Source of the DNA: Actinocorallia populi
GTDB taxonomy: Bacteria > Actinomycetota > Actinomycetes > Streptosporangiales > Streptosporangiaceae
Direction of reading: 5' to 3'
Assembly: GCF_002995495.1 (NCBI RefSeq)
Contig: NZ_PVZV01000001.1
Coordinates: 558,001-622,000, forward strand
Length of the DNA: 64,000 nucleotides
Below, in pieces: positions 10,822-45,320 of this stretch. The translations under genes were made by a program, and so were the position numbers. Within the stretch, counting starts at the first letter, position 1, and each line of letters opens with the position of its first letter. The notes under the pieces are model-generated. The model searched no databases and was not told the origin of the DNA. It was given only the letters and a program-made list of their open reading frames with translations.

Positions 10822-11427
10822 GTGATCAAGGTACTGCTCGCCGAGGACCAGCACGTGGTGCGCGCCGCCCTCGCCACCCTCCTCGACCTGGAGCCCGACC
10901 TCACCGTGGTCGCCCAGGCGGGACGCGGCGACGAGGTCGTCCCCCACGCGCTCGCCACCGCCCCCGACGTCGCCGTCCTGGACGTCGACATGCCCGGCCT
11001 GGACGGCCTGGAGGCCGCCGCCCTGCTGCGCGAGAGGCTCCCCTCCTGCCGGACGCTGATGCTCACCGGCAACGGCAGGCCCGGCCACCTCCGGCGCGCG
11101 CTGGCCGCGGGCGTCACCGGCTTCCTCCTGAAGACCGCCCCGCCCGACGAACTCGCCGAAGCCATCCGCTCCACCGCCGCCGGACGGCGGGTCCTCGACC
11201 CGTCCCTGGCCGCCGCCGCCTGGGACCTGGCCGACAACCCCCTCACCCCCCGCGAGACCGAGATCCTGCGCCTCGCCGCCACCGGCGCCGAACCCGACGA
11301 GATCGCCGCGACCCTGTTCCTCTCCCCGGGCACCGTCCGCAACAACCTGACGTCCGTCGTCACCAAACTCAACGCCCGAGGCCGCCCCGACGCCCTGCGC
11401 ATCGCCACCGAAGCCGGCTGGATCTAG
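10822..11427 (+). CDS. NarL/LuxR-family response regulator
   Basis: 201 aa. The receiver has LLAEDQ, phospho-acceptor Asp54 in VAVLDVDMPGLDG, Thr/Lys in LMLTGNG and FLLKTAPP. The HTH has TPRETEILRLAATGAEPDEIA and LSPGTVRNNL. The start is GTG (GTGATCAAGGTACTG), paralleled by the paralogue at 16736. It is convergent with the large kinase at 11534-13624, with a 106-bp gap, and divergent from the ABC exporter. The arrangement suggests it regulates that exporter, as an inference. Confidence 0.92.
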   Translation: MIKVLLAEDQHVVRAALATLLDLEPDLTVVAQAGRGDEVVPHALATAPDVAVLDVDMPGLDGLEAAALLRERLPSCRTLMLTGNGRPGHLRRALAAGVTGFLLKTAPPDELAEAIRSTAAGRRVLDPSLAAAAWDLADNPLTPRETEILRLAATGAEPDEIAATLFLSPGTVRNNLTSVVTKLNARGRPDALRIATEAGWI

Positions 11428-11533: not shown

Positions 11534-13624
11534 TCAGGTCGGTGCGGGGTCCGGTATCGGGCTCGTGGTCGGTGCCTGGGCCGGGTCCGTGGCCGGGGAG
11601 GCAGGGGGGACCGTCGCCTCGAGGCGGAAGAGGCCGGGCTCGGTGGTGACGGACAGGGTGCCGCCCAGTTCCGCCAGGCGGGTGGTGAGGTTGCCCAGGC
11701 CGGAGCCCGGGGGGCCGGTCCTTGCCCGGGGGGCGTCGTTCTCGACGGTCAGCGTCGTGGGGGTGGAGGCGATGCGGCAGGTGGAGGCGCTGCTGTGGCG
11801 CAGGATGTTGGTCACCGATTCGCGGACGACGATGCCGTAGACGGTGTCGAGCCGTTCGGGCAGGTCTCCGTGCGCCGCCTCGAACCGGGGGTCGATGCCG
11901 GCGCTGGTGAGGACGTCGCGGGCCCGGGCCAGCTCCCCGTCCAGAGTCGTGCCGCGGGAGGGCGCCAGCTCGCCCTTGGCGAGCTCGGCCATCTCGACGA
12001 GTTCGGCCAGCTCGCGGGCCGCCCGCTCGGGCGGCAGGCGGCGGGCGAGCTCGCCCTTGAGGAGGATCGCGGCCATGGTGTGACCGAGGATGTCGTGCAG
12101 GTCGCGGGCCGTGCGCAGGCGTTCCCGGACGGCCGCCGCCCTGGCCAGCTCCTCGCCGGCCTCCTGCATCTCCCTGATGACCTGGGCCAGGCGCACCAGC
12201 ACGAAGACGACGACACCGCTGACCAGGGTGCTGATCGTGTAGTTGGCCACCGCCGCCGGTTCGAGGCCGTGGCCGTGGGCGGCCCAGGCGACGCCCGCCA
12301 TGATGGCGAGCACGAACGGGACCGGCCTGGCGAACGCCACCATCAGCGTGCCGGCCAGGAAACCGGGGACGCCCAGCCACGTCTCGCCGAACCAGATCAT
12401 CGGCAGGTAGGCCAGGGCCGCCTCGGCGGCCAGCGACCACCGCCAGGCTCGAGGCCGTTCCGGTCCGCGCCAGCGCAGCACCAGGAAGGCGAAGGCCGCC
12501 AGGAAGACGGTCGCGAGGGCGAAGGACGGGCCCCAGGGGATCATGAGCAGCGCCTTGAGGCAGAACCCCGCCAGGACGGCCGTCAGCAGCGCGACCGACA
12601 GGCGGTGAGCCGCCGGGTCGGTGGGAGGCGGCTCCCGTTCGACGGCCGCGGCCTCGACGAAGAAGGTGCCGTCGGCTTCCAGGCCCGTGCGCGACGTCCC
12701 GCCCGCGGCCTCGATCCGCTCTCCGGCGCGCAGCAGCGCGTCGGTGCCCAGCGCGGCGTTCGAGACGCCGTCGTGGGAAACGCGGAGCCCCACCATGCCG
12801 TCGTCGCCGTTCCACGTCCTGATCGTGCAATGCGTGGCCGTGCCCTGCCGCACGACGTCCGTCACGGCCTCCCTCAGCACGATCGCGAGCAGCGTCCCGG
12901 CCGAGGCGAGCGGCTCCCGGTGGGCGGTGTCGACGGACACGCTGATCCCCGCCGACCTCAGCAGCGCCTCCGCGGTCGCCGTCTCGGGCCGCAGGGACAG
13001 GCTCCGCAGGTCCAGGGCCACCGCCCGGACGTCCGCCGCCGTCCTGCGCGCGCCCTCGATCATCCCCGCGACGAGTTCGGGGCGTTCCAGCGCGGCCCGG
13101 CCTTCGCGCACGATCTCCTCGAGCCCGCTGCCGAGCCGCCCGTTCAGCTCCTCCGCGAGCCGCAGCCGTTCCCGTTCGACCGCCGAGGCCGCCACCGCTC
13201 CCCGCGTCGCCTCGAGGTCCTGCGTCCGCCGCAGGAGGATGACCGTGACGGCGACGACCCCCGCCGTCAGCCCGACGGTGATGGCCGAGGACAGCGCCTC
13301 GCCCGGCGCGCGGACCGTTCCGACCACCAGGGCCGAGAGCAGGATCAGCGCGGCGGCCCCCCGCCGCCGCCCGACCGCGGCCATCCCGGCGACCGGCGCG
13401 GCCAGCGCGGGCGAGAGCCCGAACCCGAGCACGACCCCCAGCGCCGCGATCCCTTGGCCGAGGAGCAGCCGTTCGTCCTCCCGCCACCACAACCACGCGG
13501 CCTGCAGGCCGAGCACCGCCGCCACGCCCAGCAGCCCCCAGCCGCGGGCTCCCAGCAGATGCACCGCCCCGAACGCCCCCAGGACCACGGCCACCAGCGG
13601 CCGTGCCCCGCTCACGCGGGCCAA
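11534..13624 (-). CDS. tandem histidine kinase: degenerate kinase half fused to active HisKA_3 half
   Basis: 696 aa. The first ~325 residues contain membrane helices, then a kinase-like half with eroded motifs: LAEELNGRLGSGLEEI where DLHDxxGH is expected, and LREAVTDVVRQG in place of the N-box. A second set of about five helices (about 335-475) follows, then an intact HisKA_3 core with ARDLHDILGHTMAAI, RESVTNILRHSSAS and GSGLGNLTTRL. The N-terminal half is therefore likely a pseudokinase acting as a regulatory domain. The start is TTG at 13624; a GTG nine bases further in is possible. Convergent partner: the NarL regulator at 10822. Confidence 0.85.
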   Translation of the reverse strand: MARVSGARPLVAVVLGAFGAVHLLGARGWGLLGVAAVLGLQAAWLWWREDERLLLGQGIAALGVVLGFGLSPALAAPVAGMAAVGRRRGAAALILLSALVVGTVRAPGEALSSAITVGLTAGVVAVTVILLRRTQDLEATRGAVAASAVERERLRLAEELNGRLGSGLEEIVREGRAALERPELVAGMIEGARRTAADVRAVALDLRSLSLRPETATAEALLRSAGISVSVDTAHREPLASAGTLLAIVLREAVTDVVRQGTATHCTIRTWNGDDGMVGLRVSHDGVSNAALGTDALLRAGERIEAAGGTSRTGLEADGTFFVEAAAVEREPPPTDPAAHRLSVALLTAVLAGFCLKALLMIPWGPSFALATVFLAAFAFLVLRWRGPERPRAWRWSLAAEAALAYLPMIWFGETWLGVPGFLAGTLMVAFARPVPFVLAIMAGVAWAAHGHGLEPAAVANYTISTLVSGVVVFVLVRLAQVIREMQEAGEELARAAAVRERLRTARDLHDILGHTMAAILLKGELARRLPPERAARELAELVEMAELAKGELAPSRGTTLDGELARARDVLTSAGIDPRFEAAHGDLPERLDTVYGIVVRESVTNILRHSSASTCRIASTPTTLTVENDAPRARTGPPGSGLGNLTTRLAELGGTLSVTTEPGLFRLEATVPPASPATDPAQAPTTSPIPDPAPT

Positions 13625-13711: not shown

Positions 13712-13930
13712 GTGGATCGTCAGTGCGCGTCAGCGCACATCCAGTCACGAACAGCGCGCCGTCAGGCGCACGTCACTCTGTGGATCGTCCGGCGCGCGTC
13801 AGCGCACTTCCGGTCACGAACAGCGCGCCGTCAGGCGCACGTCCCTCCACGGAGCGTCCAGAGCACGTCGGCACGCGTCCGGCCACGGACAGGACGCCGT
13901 CCCTTCCACCGCGCGTCGGCGCACTTTTGG
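13712..13930. repeat. 68/69-bp GC-rich tandem repeat, intergenic copy
   Basis: Two close units start at 13712 and 13780, and a diverged third at about 13849, with a partial fourth to 13930. Each unit opens GTGGATCGTC, continues GCGCGTCAGCGCAC, CGGTCACGAACAGCGCGCC, and GTCAGGCGCACGTC. The same family occurs in frame inside the kinase gene near 18170-18330. The repeats fill most of the 394-bp gap between the kinase start and the EamA gene; no gene is supported here. Confidence 0.85.
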
Positions 13931-14018
13931 GAGAGAAGCCCTGGGGATGCCGATCCCACCCGTTCAGTCGGGGTACCCCCCAAAGCGATCAAGTGAGTCG
14001 AACGCTGAGGAACCCGCC

Positions 14019-15056
14019 ATGGCCGCCACCGCTCCGTCTCCGCCTCCGCCGGGCGGCGCCCTGCCCGCCGACCTGGCGCTGACCGCGCTGGCGCCCATGG
14101 CCTGGGGCACCACCTACGTCATCACCACCACCCTGCTGCCGCCCGACCGTCCCCTGCTGGCGGCCACCCTGCGCGCCCTGCCGGCGGGGCTCCTCCTGCT
14201 CGCCCTGGCGCCCCGGCTGCCGCGCGGGCCGTGGTGGCCGCGCCTCCTCGTCCTGGCCGTGCTGAACTTCGGCGCCTTCTTCCCGCTGCTGTTCGTCGCC
14301 GCCTACCGGCTGCCCGGCGGTGTCGCGTCGACGATCAACGCGCTCCAGCCGCTGCTCGTGGCGTTCTTCGCGTTCACCGTCACCCGGGTGCGGCCCCGGA
14401 CCGCCAGCCTGGTCGCGGCGGTCACGGGCGCGGCCGGGGTCGGCCTGATGACCCTGACGGCCGAGGCACGCCTGGACGGCACCGGCATCCTGTCCATGAT
14501 CACGGCGTTGACCCTGATGAGCCTGGCGATCGTCCTGAACAAGAAGTGGGGCCTGCCGGAGGGGATGGGCCTGCTGACGTTCACCGCGTGGCAGCTCTCC
14601 CTCGGCGGGGTCATGCTCGTGCCCCTCACCCTGGCCGTCGAGGGGCTCCCGGCGTCCTTCACCGCGGAGAACGCCCTGGGCTTCACGCTGATGGGCAGCT
14701 TCGGCACCGCCCTGGCCTACGCCCTGTGGTTCCGCGGCATCGAGCGGCTCCCCGCCACCTCCGTGGCGCTGCTCGTCCTGTGCAACCCCCTGGTCGCCAC
14801 CCTGGCGGGCTTCCTGATCCTGCACCAGACCCTGACCCCGGGCCAGCTCACGGGCTTCGCCGTCGCGCTCGGCTCCCTGGTGGCGGGCCAGCTCTCCCAG
14901 GCCGCCGCCACGCCGGACGGGGAGCCGCGCGCCGCGGTCAGCAGCGGGGATCGCCGTGCCTTACCAGCGACGCCGCGTGCCGCACCACCGCGTCCAGGTC
15001 GTCTCCGAGGGCTCCGGAGAGCCACTGGTGAGCCAGCTCCACCATCGCGCCGGTGA
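14019..15056 (+). CDS. EamA/DMT-family transporter
   Basis: 345 aa with ten hydrophobic helices in two EamA repeats: WGTTYVITTTLLPPDRPLL opens repeat one, LPGGVASTINALQPLLVAF closes it, and repeat two ends with VALLVLCNPLVATLAGFLIL. These are drug/metabolite exporters; the substrate is unknown. ATG at 14019 has GAGG upstream. The last ~40 residues are hydrophilic and overlap the convergent TetR gene by 119 bp, so the useful protein may end earlier in evolution. It is downstream of the 69-bp repeats. Confidence 0.85.
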   Translation: MAATAPSPPPPGGALPADLALTALAPMAWGTTYVITTTLLPPDRPLLAATLRALPAGLLLLALAPRLPRGPWWPRLLVLAVLNFGAFFPLLFVAAYRLPGGVASTINALQPLLVAFFAFTVTRVRPRTASLVAAVTGAAGVGLMTLTAEARLDGTGILSMITALTLMSLAIVLNKKWGLPEGMGLLTFTAWQLSLGGVMLVPLTLAVEGLPASFTAENALGFTLMGSFGTALAYALWFRGIERLPATSVALLVLCNPLVATLAGFLILHQTLTPGQLTGFAVALGSLVAGQLSQAAATPDGEPRAAVSSGDRRALPATPRAAPPRPGRLRGLRRATGEPAPPSRR

Positions 15057-15564
15057 ACATCGCGGCGCTCACCATCGCCTGACAGGGGTCGGTGTCCGGA
15101 CGGGACTGCGCGTTCTGCTGCAGGACCGCGTCCATCAGCGCGCTCTGGGTGTCCCTGCGCCGCGCGGTCAGCACCGGGTGGTCCCGCCCCTCGGTGAACA
15201 GCACCCGGCCCCGGCGCGGGTCGGCCGAGCTGAACTCCAGCACGCCGTGGACGCCGGCGCGGAGCCGTGCGGACAGCTCGTCCCCCGCCTCGTTCAGTTC
15301 GGCCAGCAGCCGCTCGGCCAGCTCCGCCGCCACCTTGTCGTACACGGCGCCGAGCAGTTCCCCGGTGTCGGCGAAGTTCTCGTAGAAGTAGCGGGCGTGC
15401 AGCCGCGCCTCCCGGCACACCGCGCGCACCGAGACGGCGGCCTCGCCGCCGGTGCCGAACAGCGCGAACGCCGCGGCCACCAGCAGGGATCGCCGCTCGC
15501 TGCGGCGGTCCGCCAGGGAGACGCCCGCCCAGCGGGTGGCCGACGGCCCCCTCTCGCGCACCAT
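14938..15564 (-). CDS. TetR-family transcriptional regulator
   Basis: 208 aa. The N-terminal HTH (about 20-65) includes SVRAVCREARLHARYFYENF, a TetR recognition helix with the YFYENF signature, and the rest is a helical ligand-binding domain. It starts at ATG 15564 (GTG 15567 also possible) behind AAGGTGGCG. It diverges from the MpaB-like oxygenase gene, and two matching operator-like palindromes lie between the genes, so it probably represses the oxygenase and itself. Its 3' end overlaps the EamA gene tail. Confidence 0.9.
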   Translation of the reverse strand: MVRERGPSATRWAGVSLADRRSERRSLLVAAAFALFGTGGEAAVSVRAVCREARLHARYFYENFADTGELLGAVYDKVAAELAERLLAELNEAGDELSARLRAGVHGVLEFSSADPRRGRVLFTEGRDHPVLTARRRDTQSALMDAVLQQNAQSRPDTDPCQAMVSAAMFTGAMVELAHQWLSGALGDDLDAVVRHAASLVRHGDPRC

Positions 15565-15587
15565 CACGCCACCTTATCCCGGCAACT

Positions 15588-15639
15588 CTGGCTACACATG
15601 TGACCAGAACTTCCCTAGACTGGCCACACCCGTAGCCAG
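15588..15639. promoter_or_regulatory. twin operator-like palindromes for the TetR regulator
   Basis: Two 20-bp sites with 8-bp arms: CTGGCTAC-acat-GTGACCAG (15588-15607) and CTGGCCAC-accc-GTAGCCAG (15620-15639). They share the consensus CTGGCYAC-N4-GTRRCCAG, and their centres are 32 bp apart, about three helical turns. They sit between the two divergent starts. Confidence 0.7.
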
Positions 15640-15652
15640 AATGGGAGTGGCC

Positions 15653-16684
15653 ATGTTCCCGACGTCCCTGCCCCTGCCCCACGAGCTGCTCACCCGGCCG
15701 CTGGCCGCCAAGTTCGACGATTTCTTCGACGCCCAGGTGCGCTCCCGCTACTTCAAGGGCCTCGACTTCGCCGGGCCCGAAGGCGACCCCGGCTGGTTCG
15801 GCCCGGACAGCGCCGTCTGGTACGTGCACTCGCACATGCCCGCCCTGGCGTTCGGCCTGGCGTGCGCGTCCTACATCGAGGGCCTGGACCCGAGCATCTT
15901 CTGGATGGCCGCCGACCACGTCCGGTTCGTCGTCCGGGACGCCGACGGCAAACCCACCGGGCAGATCGACCCGGAGGGCGCGGCCGTGCGCTTCGGCCAC
16001 TCCCTGTCGTTCTTCATCGGCACCGCCTACGGCTCCACCGAGACCGCCGAACGCCTCGCCCGCACCGTCCGGGCCATGCACCACACCGTCAAGGGAACCC
16101 GCCCCGACGGGCTCCCCTACGACGCCGACGACCCCGCCTGGCTGCGCTGGAACTACGCCACCGTCGTCTGGGGCATCGCCACCGCGCACGAGCGCTACCA
16201 CCCCCGCCCGCTCCGCGGCGCCGAACTCGACCGCTATTACGGGGAGTTCGTGCGCGTCGGCCACGCCCTGGGCGGCACCGACCTGCCCACCACCAAGGCC
16301 GAGACCCTCGACTGCCTGCACTCCTACCTGCCCAGGCTGGCCGTCACCCCCGGCAAGGCCGAACGCACCGGATCCAACCTGCGCGGCGCCAAGACAGGGC
16401 CGCTCGACAACCCGTTCATGGACTGGGCCATCCGCGACACCCTGCCCAGATGGGCCGCCCGCATGGTCATGTACCAGCGCCCCAACCCGGTGGAGCTGCG
16501 CGCCCGCCGCAGCGCCCTCTGGGCGGCCCTCAACTCCCTGCACGCCGTCACCGGCCCGCTGCCGGAGTTCCGCCAGGCCCAGGCCCGGGTCGCCGGAGGC
16601 ACCACCGTCCCGCACACCGAACCCGCCTACGCGCTCGGCAGCGACCCCGCGCGCACCAGGGAAGAGGTCGAGGCGGACGCTTGA
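15653..16684 (+). CDS. oxygenase MpaB-family (DUF2236) protein
   Basis: 343 aa, soluble, with no signal peptide. It has the DUF2236 layout: an N-terminal FPTSLPLPHELL region, AFGLACASYIEGLDPSIFWM, HHTVKGTRPDG with a conserved His pair, and DPAWLRWNYATVVWGIATAHERYH, the family's core motif. The family includes latex-clearing-protein relatives and MpaB, haem-dependent oxygenases that cleave C=C bonds; the true substrate is unknown. ATG 15653 has GGGAG at proper spacing (an in-frame ATG at 15641 overlaps it). Likely repressed by the divergent TetR protein. Confidence 0.85.
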   Translation: MFPTSLPLPHELLTRPLAAKFDDFFDAQVRSRYFKGLDFAGPEGDPGWFGPDSAVWYVHSHMPALAFGLACASYIEGLDPSIFWMAADHVRFVVRDADGKPTGQIDPEGAAVRFGHSLSFFIGTAYGSTETAERLARTVRAMHHTVKGTRPDGLPYDADDPAWLRWNYATVVWGIATAHERYHPRPLRGAELDRYYGEFVRVGHALGGTDLPTTKAETLDCLHSYLPRLAVTPGKAERTGSNLRGAKTGPLDNPFMDWAIRDTLPRWAARMVMYQRPNPVELRARRSALWAALNSLHAVTGPLPEFRQAQARVAGGTTVPHTEPAYALGSDPARTREEVEADA

Positions 16685-16735
16685 ACCCGCCATGATGGGG
16701 GCGGAAACTGCGTGACGGTGTCGCTGGGGGTGGCC

Positions 16736-17344
16736 GTGATCAGGGTGCTGCTGGCCGAGGACATGCACCTCATCCGGGGTGCGCTGGCCGCGCTGATCGA
16801 CCTGGAGGACGACATGCTGGTCGTCAGCCAGGTGTCCACCGGGGACGACGCCGTCACCCGGGGCGTCGAGCTGCGACCCGACGTGGTGGTGCTGGACATC
16901 CAGATGCCGGGACGGCTCGACGGGCTGGGGGCGGCGCAGGAACTGCGGGAGCGGGCTCCGGAATGCGCGCTGCTCATGCTGACCTCGGCGGGCAGGGCCG
17001 AGACGCTGCGCAGGTCGCTGGCGGCGGGCGCGCGGGGCTTCATGCTGAAGGACGCGCCGCCGGCCCGCCTGGCCGAGGCGATCCGGCGGGTGGCGACGGG
17101 CGAGACCGTCATCGATCCGGGCCTGGCGGCCGCGGTGATCACCGGGCCGCCCAACCCGCTGAGCCCGCGTGAGGCGGAGGTGCTGCGCAAGGCGGGAGAG
17201 GGCGCGGACCTCGCAGAGATCGCGAATGAGCTGTTCCTCAGCAAGGGGACGGTGCGCAACTACCTCGGCGCCATCGTCACGAAGCTAGACGCCCGCAACA
17301 GGCTCGACGCCGTCCGCATCGCCGCTGAGAACGGCTGGATATAG
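16736..17344 (+). CDS. NarL/LuxR-family response regulator (paralogue of the one at 10822)
   Basis: 202 aa from the GTG at 16736, chosen by analogy with the paralogue (GTGATC...) and a GGGGGTGG just upstream; a GTG at 16712 is in the same frame. Receiver motifs are LLAEDM, VVVLDIQMPG, LMLTSAG and FMLKDAPP. The HTH has SPREAEVLRKAGEG and LSKGTVRNYLGAI. The protein ends ENGWI, like EAGWI in the paralogue. It converges with and overlaps the kinase at 17285 by 60 bp. Confidence 0.9.
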   Translation: MIRVLLAEDMHLIRGALAALIDLEDDMLVVSQVSTGDDAVTRGVELRPDVVVLDIQMPGRLDGLGAAQELRERAPECALLMLTSAGRAETLRRSLAAGARGFMLKDAPPARLAEAIRRVATGETVIDPGLAAAVITGPPNPLSPREAEVLRKAGEGADLAEIANELFLSKGTVRNYLGAIVTKLDARNRLDAVRIAAENGWI

Positions 17345-19120
17345 GACGGTCAGCTCGTACTCGCCTCCGCTCCCTCCAGCGGAGAGCGTGCCGCCCGCAG
17401 CGGTCACCCGGGCGGTGAGATTGGCGGTCCCGCTACCGCTTCCCCTGACTTCGGAGGCTCCATCGTTGACGACCCGAAGCCCCTCCCGAGTGACCTCGAT
17501 GCGGCAGCGGGTGGCGGAACTGTGCCGCAGCACGTTGGTGACGGCCTCCCGCAGGACGATCGCCAGCAGCGCGTCGTCCCGTTCCGATGCCCGGTGGACG
17601 GCGACTTCGATACCTGCCGCTTCCAGCAGCGGCCGGGCCGAGTCCAGCTCGGCTGCGAGCGACAGCTGCGGATCCGGCTCCTCGGGGATGGCGCGCAACG
17701 CGGACAAGGACCTCCTGGCGATCGTCGCGATCTCCTCGAACTGCTCCCCGGCGGCCCGCGGCTCGAGTCTCCCGGCCAGCTCGGCTTTGACGGTGATGGC
17801 GGACAGCCCGTAGCCGAGAAGGTCGTGGACATCGCGGGAGATGCGCTTGCGCTCGTCCGCGGCGGCGAGCACGGCGAGCGCACGCCGCGCCTCCCGGGCC
17901 TGGAGCACCAGCGCCGTCTGTGCCGCCAGCCCGTAGAGCATCGCGGCGACGGCCACGGCGTTGAACGACCAGTAGAGGTTCTCGGCGGGGGAGTAGTCGC
18001 GAGCGGTCAGTACGACGGCCACCGCGGCGATGACACCCCCCGCCGCCGGCCACCAGGCCCGCCCCAGCGCGAGGAAACCCCCCGCGGCGAACCCGGCGAG
18101 CTGCGGATAGGCCTGCCCCGGATACAGGAGCACAGCGGCCGTGAGCCCGATCTGCGCCAACACCGTCCACGGCACGACGCGCGCCTGACGGCGCCCTACC
18201 CATGACCGAACACACGCTGACGCGCACTGAACGACCCATGGCACGACGCGCGCCTGACAGCACACCACCCATGACTGAACGCGCGCTGACGCGCACTGAA
18301 CGACGCGCGCCTGGCGGCGCGCCGCCCGCGACGGCGAGCGCTCAACGGTCCGCGGATCGTCCCGGGGCCGCGTGTGGAGTGGGTGTGGCAGGGCGTGGTG
18401 CAGTTGCAGGCCGAGGATTCCTGCGGCGAGCAGTGCGGGGGCGGGGCGTCCGCCCAGGTAGATGAGGGCGGTCACGAAGTATCCGGCATGCACGACGAGG
18501 AGGATCGGCAGGGCGAGGCCGGGGGTGAGGTCCGGTTCGGGGACGGGCTCCCCCGGCTTGGCCGGGACGGCGCGGGCACGCGCCGCGGCCTCGCGGGAGA
18601 CCTCGGCGATCCGTGCCGCGTCGCCGCGTCCGGCCAGGGCGATGACCGTGGACAGGGCCGTTCCCAGGGCGGTCTGCAGTTCGCGGGCCGCCCGTGCCCG
18701 CTCGGCGGCGACCGAACGGGCGGCGAGCTCGGCACGGGTGGCGTGGAGGGCGGCGCGCGTGTCGCCGAGCCGCGTCACCCCGAACAGGACGAGGCCCTGG
18801 CACACCGTGTTCAGCAGCGCGAGGGCGATCTCGAACGGTGTCGCGGGCGCGAGCAGCACCGCCGCCGCGGCCACGGCGGCGAACAGGCACCAGCGCGCGG
18901 CCCCGCGCAGGAGGAGCAGTGAGGACGCCGCGACCATGCCCGCCGCCGCGGGCCCCGCCCAGGGCAGGAGCAGGAGCTGCACCGCCAGCGTCCCGCGGCC
19001 GCGCCAGGGCGTCAGGCAGTGGAGCAGCTGGAGGGCCAGGACGAGGGCGAACGGGAGGCCGGGCACCGGATGGAGCGGATCGAAGGCGACGCCCGCGAGG
19101 ACCACCAGAACGATCAGCAC
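17285..19120 (-). CDS. tandem histidine kinase with in-frame 23-aa repeats
   Basis: 611 aa. Same architecture as the kinase at 11534: helices, a degenerate kinase-like segment (ARELQTALGTALSTVIALAG replaces the H-box), a second set of helices, then an intact HisKA_3 core with SRDVHDLLGYGLSAI and REAVTNVLRHSSAT and a GSGTANLTARV lid. Between the halves, residues about 260-318 are encoded by the 69-bp repeat family and read as 23-aa units (VVQCASARVQSWVVCCQARV and variants), rich in Arg and Cys and unlike the rest of the protein. Start GTG at 19120. Overlaps the convergent regulator gene by 60 bp. Its transmitter motifs are intact; whether the repeats affect function is unknown. Confidence 0.85.
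   Translation of the reverse strand: MLIVLVVLAGVAFDPLHPVPGLPFALVLALQLLHCLTPWRGRGTLAVQLLLLPWAGPAAAGMVAASSLLLLRGAARWCLFAAVAAAAVLLAPATPFEIALALLNTVCQGLVLFGVTRLGDTRAALHATRAELAARSVAAERARAARELQTALGTALSTVIALAGRGDAARIAEVSREAAARARAVPAKPGEPVPEPDLTPGLALPILLVVHAGYFVTALIYLGGRPAPALLAAGILGLQLHHALPHPLHTRPRDDPRTVERSPSRAARRQARVVQCASARVQSWVVCCQARVVPWVVQCASACVRSWVGRRQARVVPWTVLAQIGLTAAVLLYPGQAYPQLAGFAAGGFLALGRAWWPAAGGVIAAVAVVLTARDYSPAENLYWSFNAVAVAAMLYGLAAQTALVLQAREARRALAVLAAADERKRISRDVHDLLGYGLSAITVKAELAGRLEPRAAGEQFEEIATIARRSLSALRAIPEEPDPQLSLAAELDSARPLLEAAGIEVAVHRASERDDALLAIVLREAVTNVLRHSSATRCRIEVTREGLRVVNDGASEVRGSGSGTANLTARVTAAGGTLSAGGSGGEYELTVLYPAVLSGDADGVEPVAGV
18167..18332. repeat. 69-bp tandem repeats inside the kinase coding sequence
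   Basis: Units at 18167 and 18236 with exactly 69-bp period (for example GGCACGACGCGCGCCTGAC at 18171 and 18240), plus a partial third at 18301 after a 12-bp deletion. All length changes are multiples of three, keeping the kinase frame open. The reverse complement matches the units at 13712-13930. Confidence 0.85.
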
Positions 19121-45223: not shown

Positions 45224-45320
45224 TCGGTTCGTCCACAGACCGACGTACACCCGCCGCTCGTGACCGGTCGTCCGCCGGCGCGCGCCCGATGACGTCGGCA
45301 CGCGCCGGACGGCCCGGCGC

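Follow-up and report, generated by a model that had tools for sequence, protein, structure and literature searches.

A dispersed 69-bp double-hairpin repeat, apparently private to one Actinocorallia genome, occurs in frame within a sensor kinase gene

The 64,000-nucleotide stretch of the Actinocorallia populi genome analysed here (assembly GCF_002995495.1, contig NZ_PVZV01000001.1, positions 558,001 to 622,000; hereafter the window) carries two arrays of one repeat of approximately 69 bp, the first next to the sensor kinase gene HK1 and the second inside the open frame of its paralogue, HK2. The results make it very likely that this is a small, parasite-like dispersed repeat, private to this genome, that spread beside TCCA(C)-like sites, grew by duplication, and was captured in at least three genes. 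The initial annotation of the window had likewise proposed a spreading repeat that became coding in the kinase gene; the many copies elsewhere in the genome, together with the lack of the corresponding peptide in all 14 aligned orthologue rows, support that proposal.

The repeat family and its distribution

The intergenic array (13712-13901, minus strand), consisting of units at 13712-13778 and 13780-13847 and a degenerate one at 13850-13901, occupies the divergent gap between HK1 (11534-13594, minus strand, assigned by frame and family match), a double-module kinase gene without an insert, and an EamA transporter gene. The kinase-gene array (18166-18350, plus strand) has units at 18166-18238, 18241-18303 and 18304-18350, and is read antisense by HK2. 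Tandem Repeats Finder gives a period of 69 for both, with 2.7 copies at 13714-13901 and 2.0 copies at 18167-18304, and the five main window units score 37-66 bits with the unit model (E 8e-19 to 8e-10 in 260 kb). The arrays are inverted repeats of each other, 74% complementary over 124 nt, which, with the model scores, agrees with their earlier assignment to a single family, the second member being inverted; both arrays are real, but their ends had to be corrected, the degenerate third unit carrying the kinase array on to about 18350. A weak single unit at 45232-45291 (plus strand; 24.3 bits, E 7e-6 in 260 kb, E 0.02 genome-wide) is probably decayed. BLAST with 18150-18335 as the query matched G000:C1:548265 at 78% (E 1.6e-21), compared with 74% (E 8e-16) for 13720-13843; the kinase units are thus no nearer to the array at 13712 than to other copies.

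Across the genome (8.25 Mb, 25 contigs), BLAST at E<=0.001 found 17 places with one array as the query and 12 with the other. A sequence-only model, R1, built from 22 aligned units out of the BLAST loci, gave 77 matches at E<=0.1, the best at 72 bits (E 3e-19); the copies elsewhere on which the initial annotation had made its proposal depend are therefore present. Because R1 was trained on units of this genome, relatives served as the negative control. Among 59 of them the top R1 score was 22.2 bits, with no match at all in either of the two genus mates; as these relatives are of like composition, chance likeness of GC-rich DNA is ruled out. A match at E<=0.01 occurs in 24 of 60 genomes, of which 23 are relatives with 1-3 matches each of approximately 18-22 bits, which, going by score, we read as noise. 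In five whole genomes, including those of Microtetraspora malaysiensis and M. fusca, R1 gave a single match, of 24.1 bits, in M. fusca. A family search over 341 genomes returned the A. populi genome plus two single matches (E 9e-5) in two others, although, with 14 candidates scored per genome and only 17 own-genome matches recovered, it would miss sparse families. Degenerate-pattern scans of genome_contigs (84,980 genomes, that of A. populi perhaps left out) and of viral contigs gave zero matches with a strict pattern that matches nine stretches, in 8 of 40 sources, in the A. populi genome itself. Plasmids and phages likewise gave no match, and the repeat being plasmid or phage cargo was rejected on these negatives together with that for viral contigs. 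A known RNA family as its identity was also rejected, no Rfam match being found for the seven loci submitted, and nothing found in the open-licence literature describes an actinobacterial counterpart. As judged from these searches, the family appears to be genome-private.

The unit comprises TCCAC, a first hairpin (GYGCC-TGAC-GGCRC), a spacer near CCCGTGGC, a second hairpin (GYGCGC-TGAC-GCGCRC) and then GATCCAC; both hairpins have a TGAC loop and, in orientation A, nine variable bases separate TCCAC from hairpin 1 and TGAACGATCCAC follows hairpin 2. The unit ends are direct copies of TCCAC rather than inverted ones. With 55 units aligned to R1, standard pairs make up 84.2% in the named structure, compared with 16-62% when it is slid, and doubly changed cells number 25, against 13.6 +/- 3.1 in shuffles, none of 500 shuffles being as high. 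Related units can exceed shuffles without any structure, so this covariation is support and not proof. RNAalifold run on 22 units gave a covariation term that was nearly nil (-0.09), the signal emerging only with 55 units and the named structure; an alternative register of hairpin 2 was rejected, its covariation being weaker than that of the chosen register. A DnaA-box reading of the TCCACA spacer (TTGTCCACA or TTATCCACA at the edge of three arrays, L119, L123 and L130; consensus GATCCACA) was considered and dropped.

Neighbouring units within an array have a median identity of 0.88 (17 pairs), compared with 0.67 (1404 pairs) for units in different arrays, which indicates that arrays grow locally. 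The description of the repeat as minisatellite-like thus holds for array growth but not for dispersal, which has the look of a hairpin element inserting where TCCA(C)-like sequence is present. The units of the largest array (L120:2533-3119; 8 scored units, 587 bp) have diverged strongly from one another; on one side this array has a DivIVA-like gene and on the other a gene that matches no Pfam family.

For gene context, 39 stretches were fetched around 39 arrays outside the window and genes were called by codon score, with a script written for this analysis instead of a standard gene caller. Arrays with a best unit of at least 24 bits number 34, of which 31 are intergenic (some overlapping a gene end, by at most 19 nt) and three intragenic, in DNA that is approximately 86% coding. 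This near-exclusive position in gaps, together with two conserved hairpins per unit and conserved spacers, is what would be expected of functional intergenic elements under selection, such as bidirectional terminators, mRNA-stabilising hairpins or protein-binding sites, with the coding copies being accidental; such roles are widely proposed for repetitive extragenic palindromic (REP) sequences in the available text of PMC3733652. We consider this explanation unlikely. The gaps are tandem in 19 cases, divergent in 8 and convergent in 4, compared with 17, 9 and 8 for window gaps of at least 100 bp, and orientation in the tandem gaps is even (10 sense, 9 antisense). With neither an excess in convergent gaps nor an orientation bias, a terminator role is not indicated by the contexts, and we rejected it; the Rfam result and the lack of comparable matches in the relatives searched also argue against selected function.

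Clustering of the arrays is modest, with 13 neighbours within 50 kb where 6.0 are expected, a value reached in 4 of 5000 simulations (with the sizes of contigs C12 and C14 guessed). On contigs C1, C8, C11 and C13 arrays are often near one another, and close inverted pairs occur, e.g. C1:571712/576166, C11:116032/121718 and C13:46026/53877. The initial annotation had taken the paralogous regulator/kinase loci as relevant to the spread, a view we do not retain, given that the family is genome-wide, that the flanking genes mostly belong to different, unrelated housekeeping families, and that HK1 lacks an insert. Four of the 31 intergenic arrays overlap the start of a called gene or are no more than 5 nt away from it. 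At L114:2427-2434, L117:2526-2533 and L142:2462-2469 the TCCAC that starts the array codes for the last His of the gene upstream, which takes its stop codon (TCCACTGA, TCCACTAG) from the unit. Matches of 20-21 bits within genes at L144 and L145 are probably due to chance.

In-frame copies in protein-coding genes

HK2 (17285-19120, minus strand) encodes a double-module sensor histidine kinase (HisKA_3) in an uninterrupted open frame of 611 aa, within which the insert lies. The net insertion is 183 nt, i.e. 61 aa, as measured between GTCC at 18165-18168 and GTCC at 18348-18351. The earlier statement that every length change is a multiple of three is right as to the net length, which is divisible by three but is not a multiple of 69. 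The insert is missing in every one of the 14 orthologue rows that were aligned (12 of them different from one another; identity down to approximately 77%), among them rows from Microtetraspora, Streptosporangium, Nonomuraea, Actinoallomurus, Murinocardiopsis and Marinactinospora; in one kinase locus set 11 (L172-L182) of 39 loci were aligned and 28 left out, and L086/L178 and L088/L176 look identical. Most orthologues read RPRH-xx-WT, where HK2 has RPRDD, 61 extra residues and WT, and in orientation A the empty site is GTCCAGGCGGCGTGCCG, or near it, in the four nearest orthologues. The same peptide in all orthologues, which would have marked an ordinary conserved linker, is therefore not what is found.

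The codon score in the HK2 frame is -0.23 per codon over the insert, compared with +0.33 and +0.24 over its flanks; the insert thus lacks host codon bias, as would be expected of non-coding DNA captured recently. An AlphaFold2 model (10 sequences, mean pLDDT, the predicted local distance difference test, 76.9) places it in the loop that connects membrane helices 226-243 and 317-332; its pLDDT values are 30-66, and it is predicted to be disordered. Although the in-frame, Arg/Cys-rich addition had been identified correctly, its placing between the two kinase halves is not exact, since that loop lies within the second membrane bundle. Most likely the insert is a tolerated passenger, a neutrality that we infer.

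Tandem 23-aa units and a frame-preserving length also resemble growth of a minisatellite within a gene, and weak matches are common in GC-rich DNA (the 18-22-bit matches in 23 of 59 relatives), so that the insert might be an ordinary lineage-specific linker enlarged by slippage in the kinase gene, with any resemblance to other loci due to chance in GC-rich DNA. We regard this as highly improbable. Own-genome matches of up to 72 bits, mainly outside genes, in our view refute it, and the covarying stems, the lack of coding bias in the insert and the lack of similar peptides in orthologues all stand against it.

Two further genes carry clear in-frame copies. A major facilitator superfamily (MFS) transporter gene (L131) has 16 extra residues (48 nt) that are missing in all nine aligned orthologues (matches were found in 32 relatives, of which nine were returned as loci and aligned), and its empty site in both genus mates is exactly GATCCAC. 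A secreted DUF11/CARDB protein (L116) has two 23-aa units between its signal peptide and mature domain; two genus-mate homologues are without these units, but are just 41-42% identical. A DUF2786 protein (L141), 12 aa longer than those of the genus mates, was considered as a fourth case and is now called ambiguous, because one half of the match looks like ancestral coding sequence as found in the orthologues. All three clear intragenic arrays are read antisense; since array frames are closed by stops less often in antisense (21/102) than in sense (56/102), this can explain the shared direction.

HK1 and HK2 each resemble two fused membrane-plus-kinase modules; in the first module of HK1, a weak match to HATPase_c is all that remains. 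The 3' end of HK2 overlaps convergently, by 60 bp (17285-17344), with that of RR2 (16712-17344, plus strand), which encodes a LuxR-type response regulator paralogous to that of RR1 (10822-11427, plus strand); both regulator genes were assigned by frame and family match.

Insertion site and mode of spread

At the kinase locus the array is flanked on the left by GTCCAC (18165-18170, plus strand), of which the minus strand encodes the conserved Trp-Thr, and on the right by GGTCCGC (18347-18353, plus strand), compared with a single GTCCA at the empty site of the four nearest orthologues, a pattern that a target-site duplication and the unit's own TCCAC end would produce alike. The orthologous kinase genes contain some 2-5 copies of TCCA per kb, and its presence at two independent empty sites is thus unlikely to be due to chance; strict TCCAC is found in 3% of random 24-nt window stretches. 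On this basis we infer insertion beside TCCA(C), which would have proceeded either through an enzyme that the genome no longer has or through copying driven by microhomology. In the proposed course of events, a non-coding hairpin element would insert beside TCCA(C)-like sites, chiefly in intergenic gaps, and local tandem duplication would then enlarge the arrays. In at least three genes the insertion would have been tolerated, since its net length is divisible by three, the unit read antisense is largely free of stops, and the protein is flexible there, in a loop; HK2 would thereby have gained its probably unstructured segment of 61 Arg/Cys-rich residues between membrane helices.

Several observations count against this reading. 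The covariation is modest and the units are of common descent. None of the insert lengths (183 nt, 48 nt and, for the secreted protein, approximately 40 aa) is a whole number of units, and deletions must therefore have followed insertion. The evidence for TCCAC as the site comes from three genes, and the kinase orthologue G002 and several MFS orthologues are without TCCA there. As for a mobilising enzyme, Y1_Tnp (PF01797) gave zero matches in the A. populi genome (5 of 14 control genomes match), and no transposase is among the 25 listed of the 108 families of 63 flanking genes.

One alternative is that the repeat is a miniature inverted-repeat transposable element (MITE) or REP moved in trans by an HUH (Y1) transposase inserting 3' of TCCAC. 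Hairpins beside a short invariant motif are characteristic of the ends of REP/IS605-type elements, and each inserted unit would bring a new target at its end, so that serial insertion would give head-to-tail arrays; the empty sites of both the kinase and MFS genes, with their ancestral TCCA(C), and the rarity of strict TCCAC would also fit. The lack of a Y1_Tnp gene, however, means that the enzyme must have been lost or belong to another family, and the higher identity within arrays points to local duplication rather than serial insertion, leaving this alternative improbable in our judgement. We are similarly doubtful of a bolder version of the favoured reading, i.e. that the family is a recently active, self-targeting repeat of one actinobacterial lineage, its unit ending in its own TCCAC motif, that is mobilised by an unrecognised non-Y1 route and makes new in-frame protein segments out of non-coding hairpin DNA, with the 69-bp period letting the kinase loop vary in 23-aa steps.

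Comparison with known repeat systems

In the available texts of PMC3733652 and PMC10969869, Rickettsia palindromic elements (RPEs) and CGTC REPs are described as short dispersed palindromes, mostly intergenic but in frame in unrelated protein genes, with repeat clusters coding for 43-82 aa in Thauera and R. conorii, and with no dedicated transposase for the CGTC REPs. The repeat described here is similar in being a dispersed short palindrome, with 77 matches and covarying hairpins, and, as for RPEs, in having in-frame insertions that are missing in orthologues (14/14 rows for the kinase and 9/9 for the MFS transporter, the homologues of the secreted protein being only 41-42% identical). It differs in having a double hairpin in 69-bp tandem units, in its actinobacterial host, a group not named in the available text of PMC3733652, and in being without a sequence match in the 84,980-genome pattern scan. 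With respect to the CGTC tag, which would here read GACG, the 51 units with letters at that place have GACG immediately 5' of hairpin 1 in 22 cases and AACG in 7, the last G being paired in the stem model.

REPs within genes have been described, and the termini of GTAG REPs can give flanking open reading frames (ORFs) stop codons (PMC3733652, in the text available). The intergenic hairpins of our repeat, and its arrays in L114 and L117 that supply stop codons to upstream genes, are like those of GTAG REPs and their associated tyrosine transposases (RAYTs); unlike them, GTAG is present in 1 of 55 units and CTAC in 5 of 55, and the genome is without a Y1 (IS200/IS605-type) transposase gene. Mycobacterial interspersed repetitive units (MIRUs) are actinobacterial short dispersed repeats, viewed as mobile, that insert at start codons with a coupled ORF (PMC12548453, in the text available), and their original description, by its title, concerns a two-component operon (PMC2704214). 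Our repeat is similarly short, dispersed and actinobacterial, but just 4 of its 31 intergenic arrays are at gene starts, and each unit has two covarying hairpins. Unlike MITEs, it lacks terminal inverted repeats. The 57-bp variable-number tandem repeat (VNTR) of Mycobacterium tuberculosis leuA, a coding tandem repeat that adds dispensable amino-acid repeats (PMC2704214, in the text available), is comparable as a coding tandem unit with a length that is a multiple of three; the HK2 insert is shown to derive from a dispersed family.

Overall, the repeat appears, from its sequence features, to be of the REP/RPE kind, behaving like an RPE while differing from GTAG REPs in its tag and in the lack of a Y1 enzyme. 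It shows clearly that an intergenic repeat can be captured as protein sequence outside Rickettsia and the common hosts of REPs, in a case where the empty sites have been sequenced and source copies can be identified. As a family found in a single species, it also offers a testable system for studying how a short repeat can spread when no transposase is known for it, and how the peptides thus donated come to be tolerated or used.

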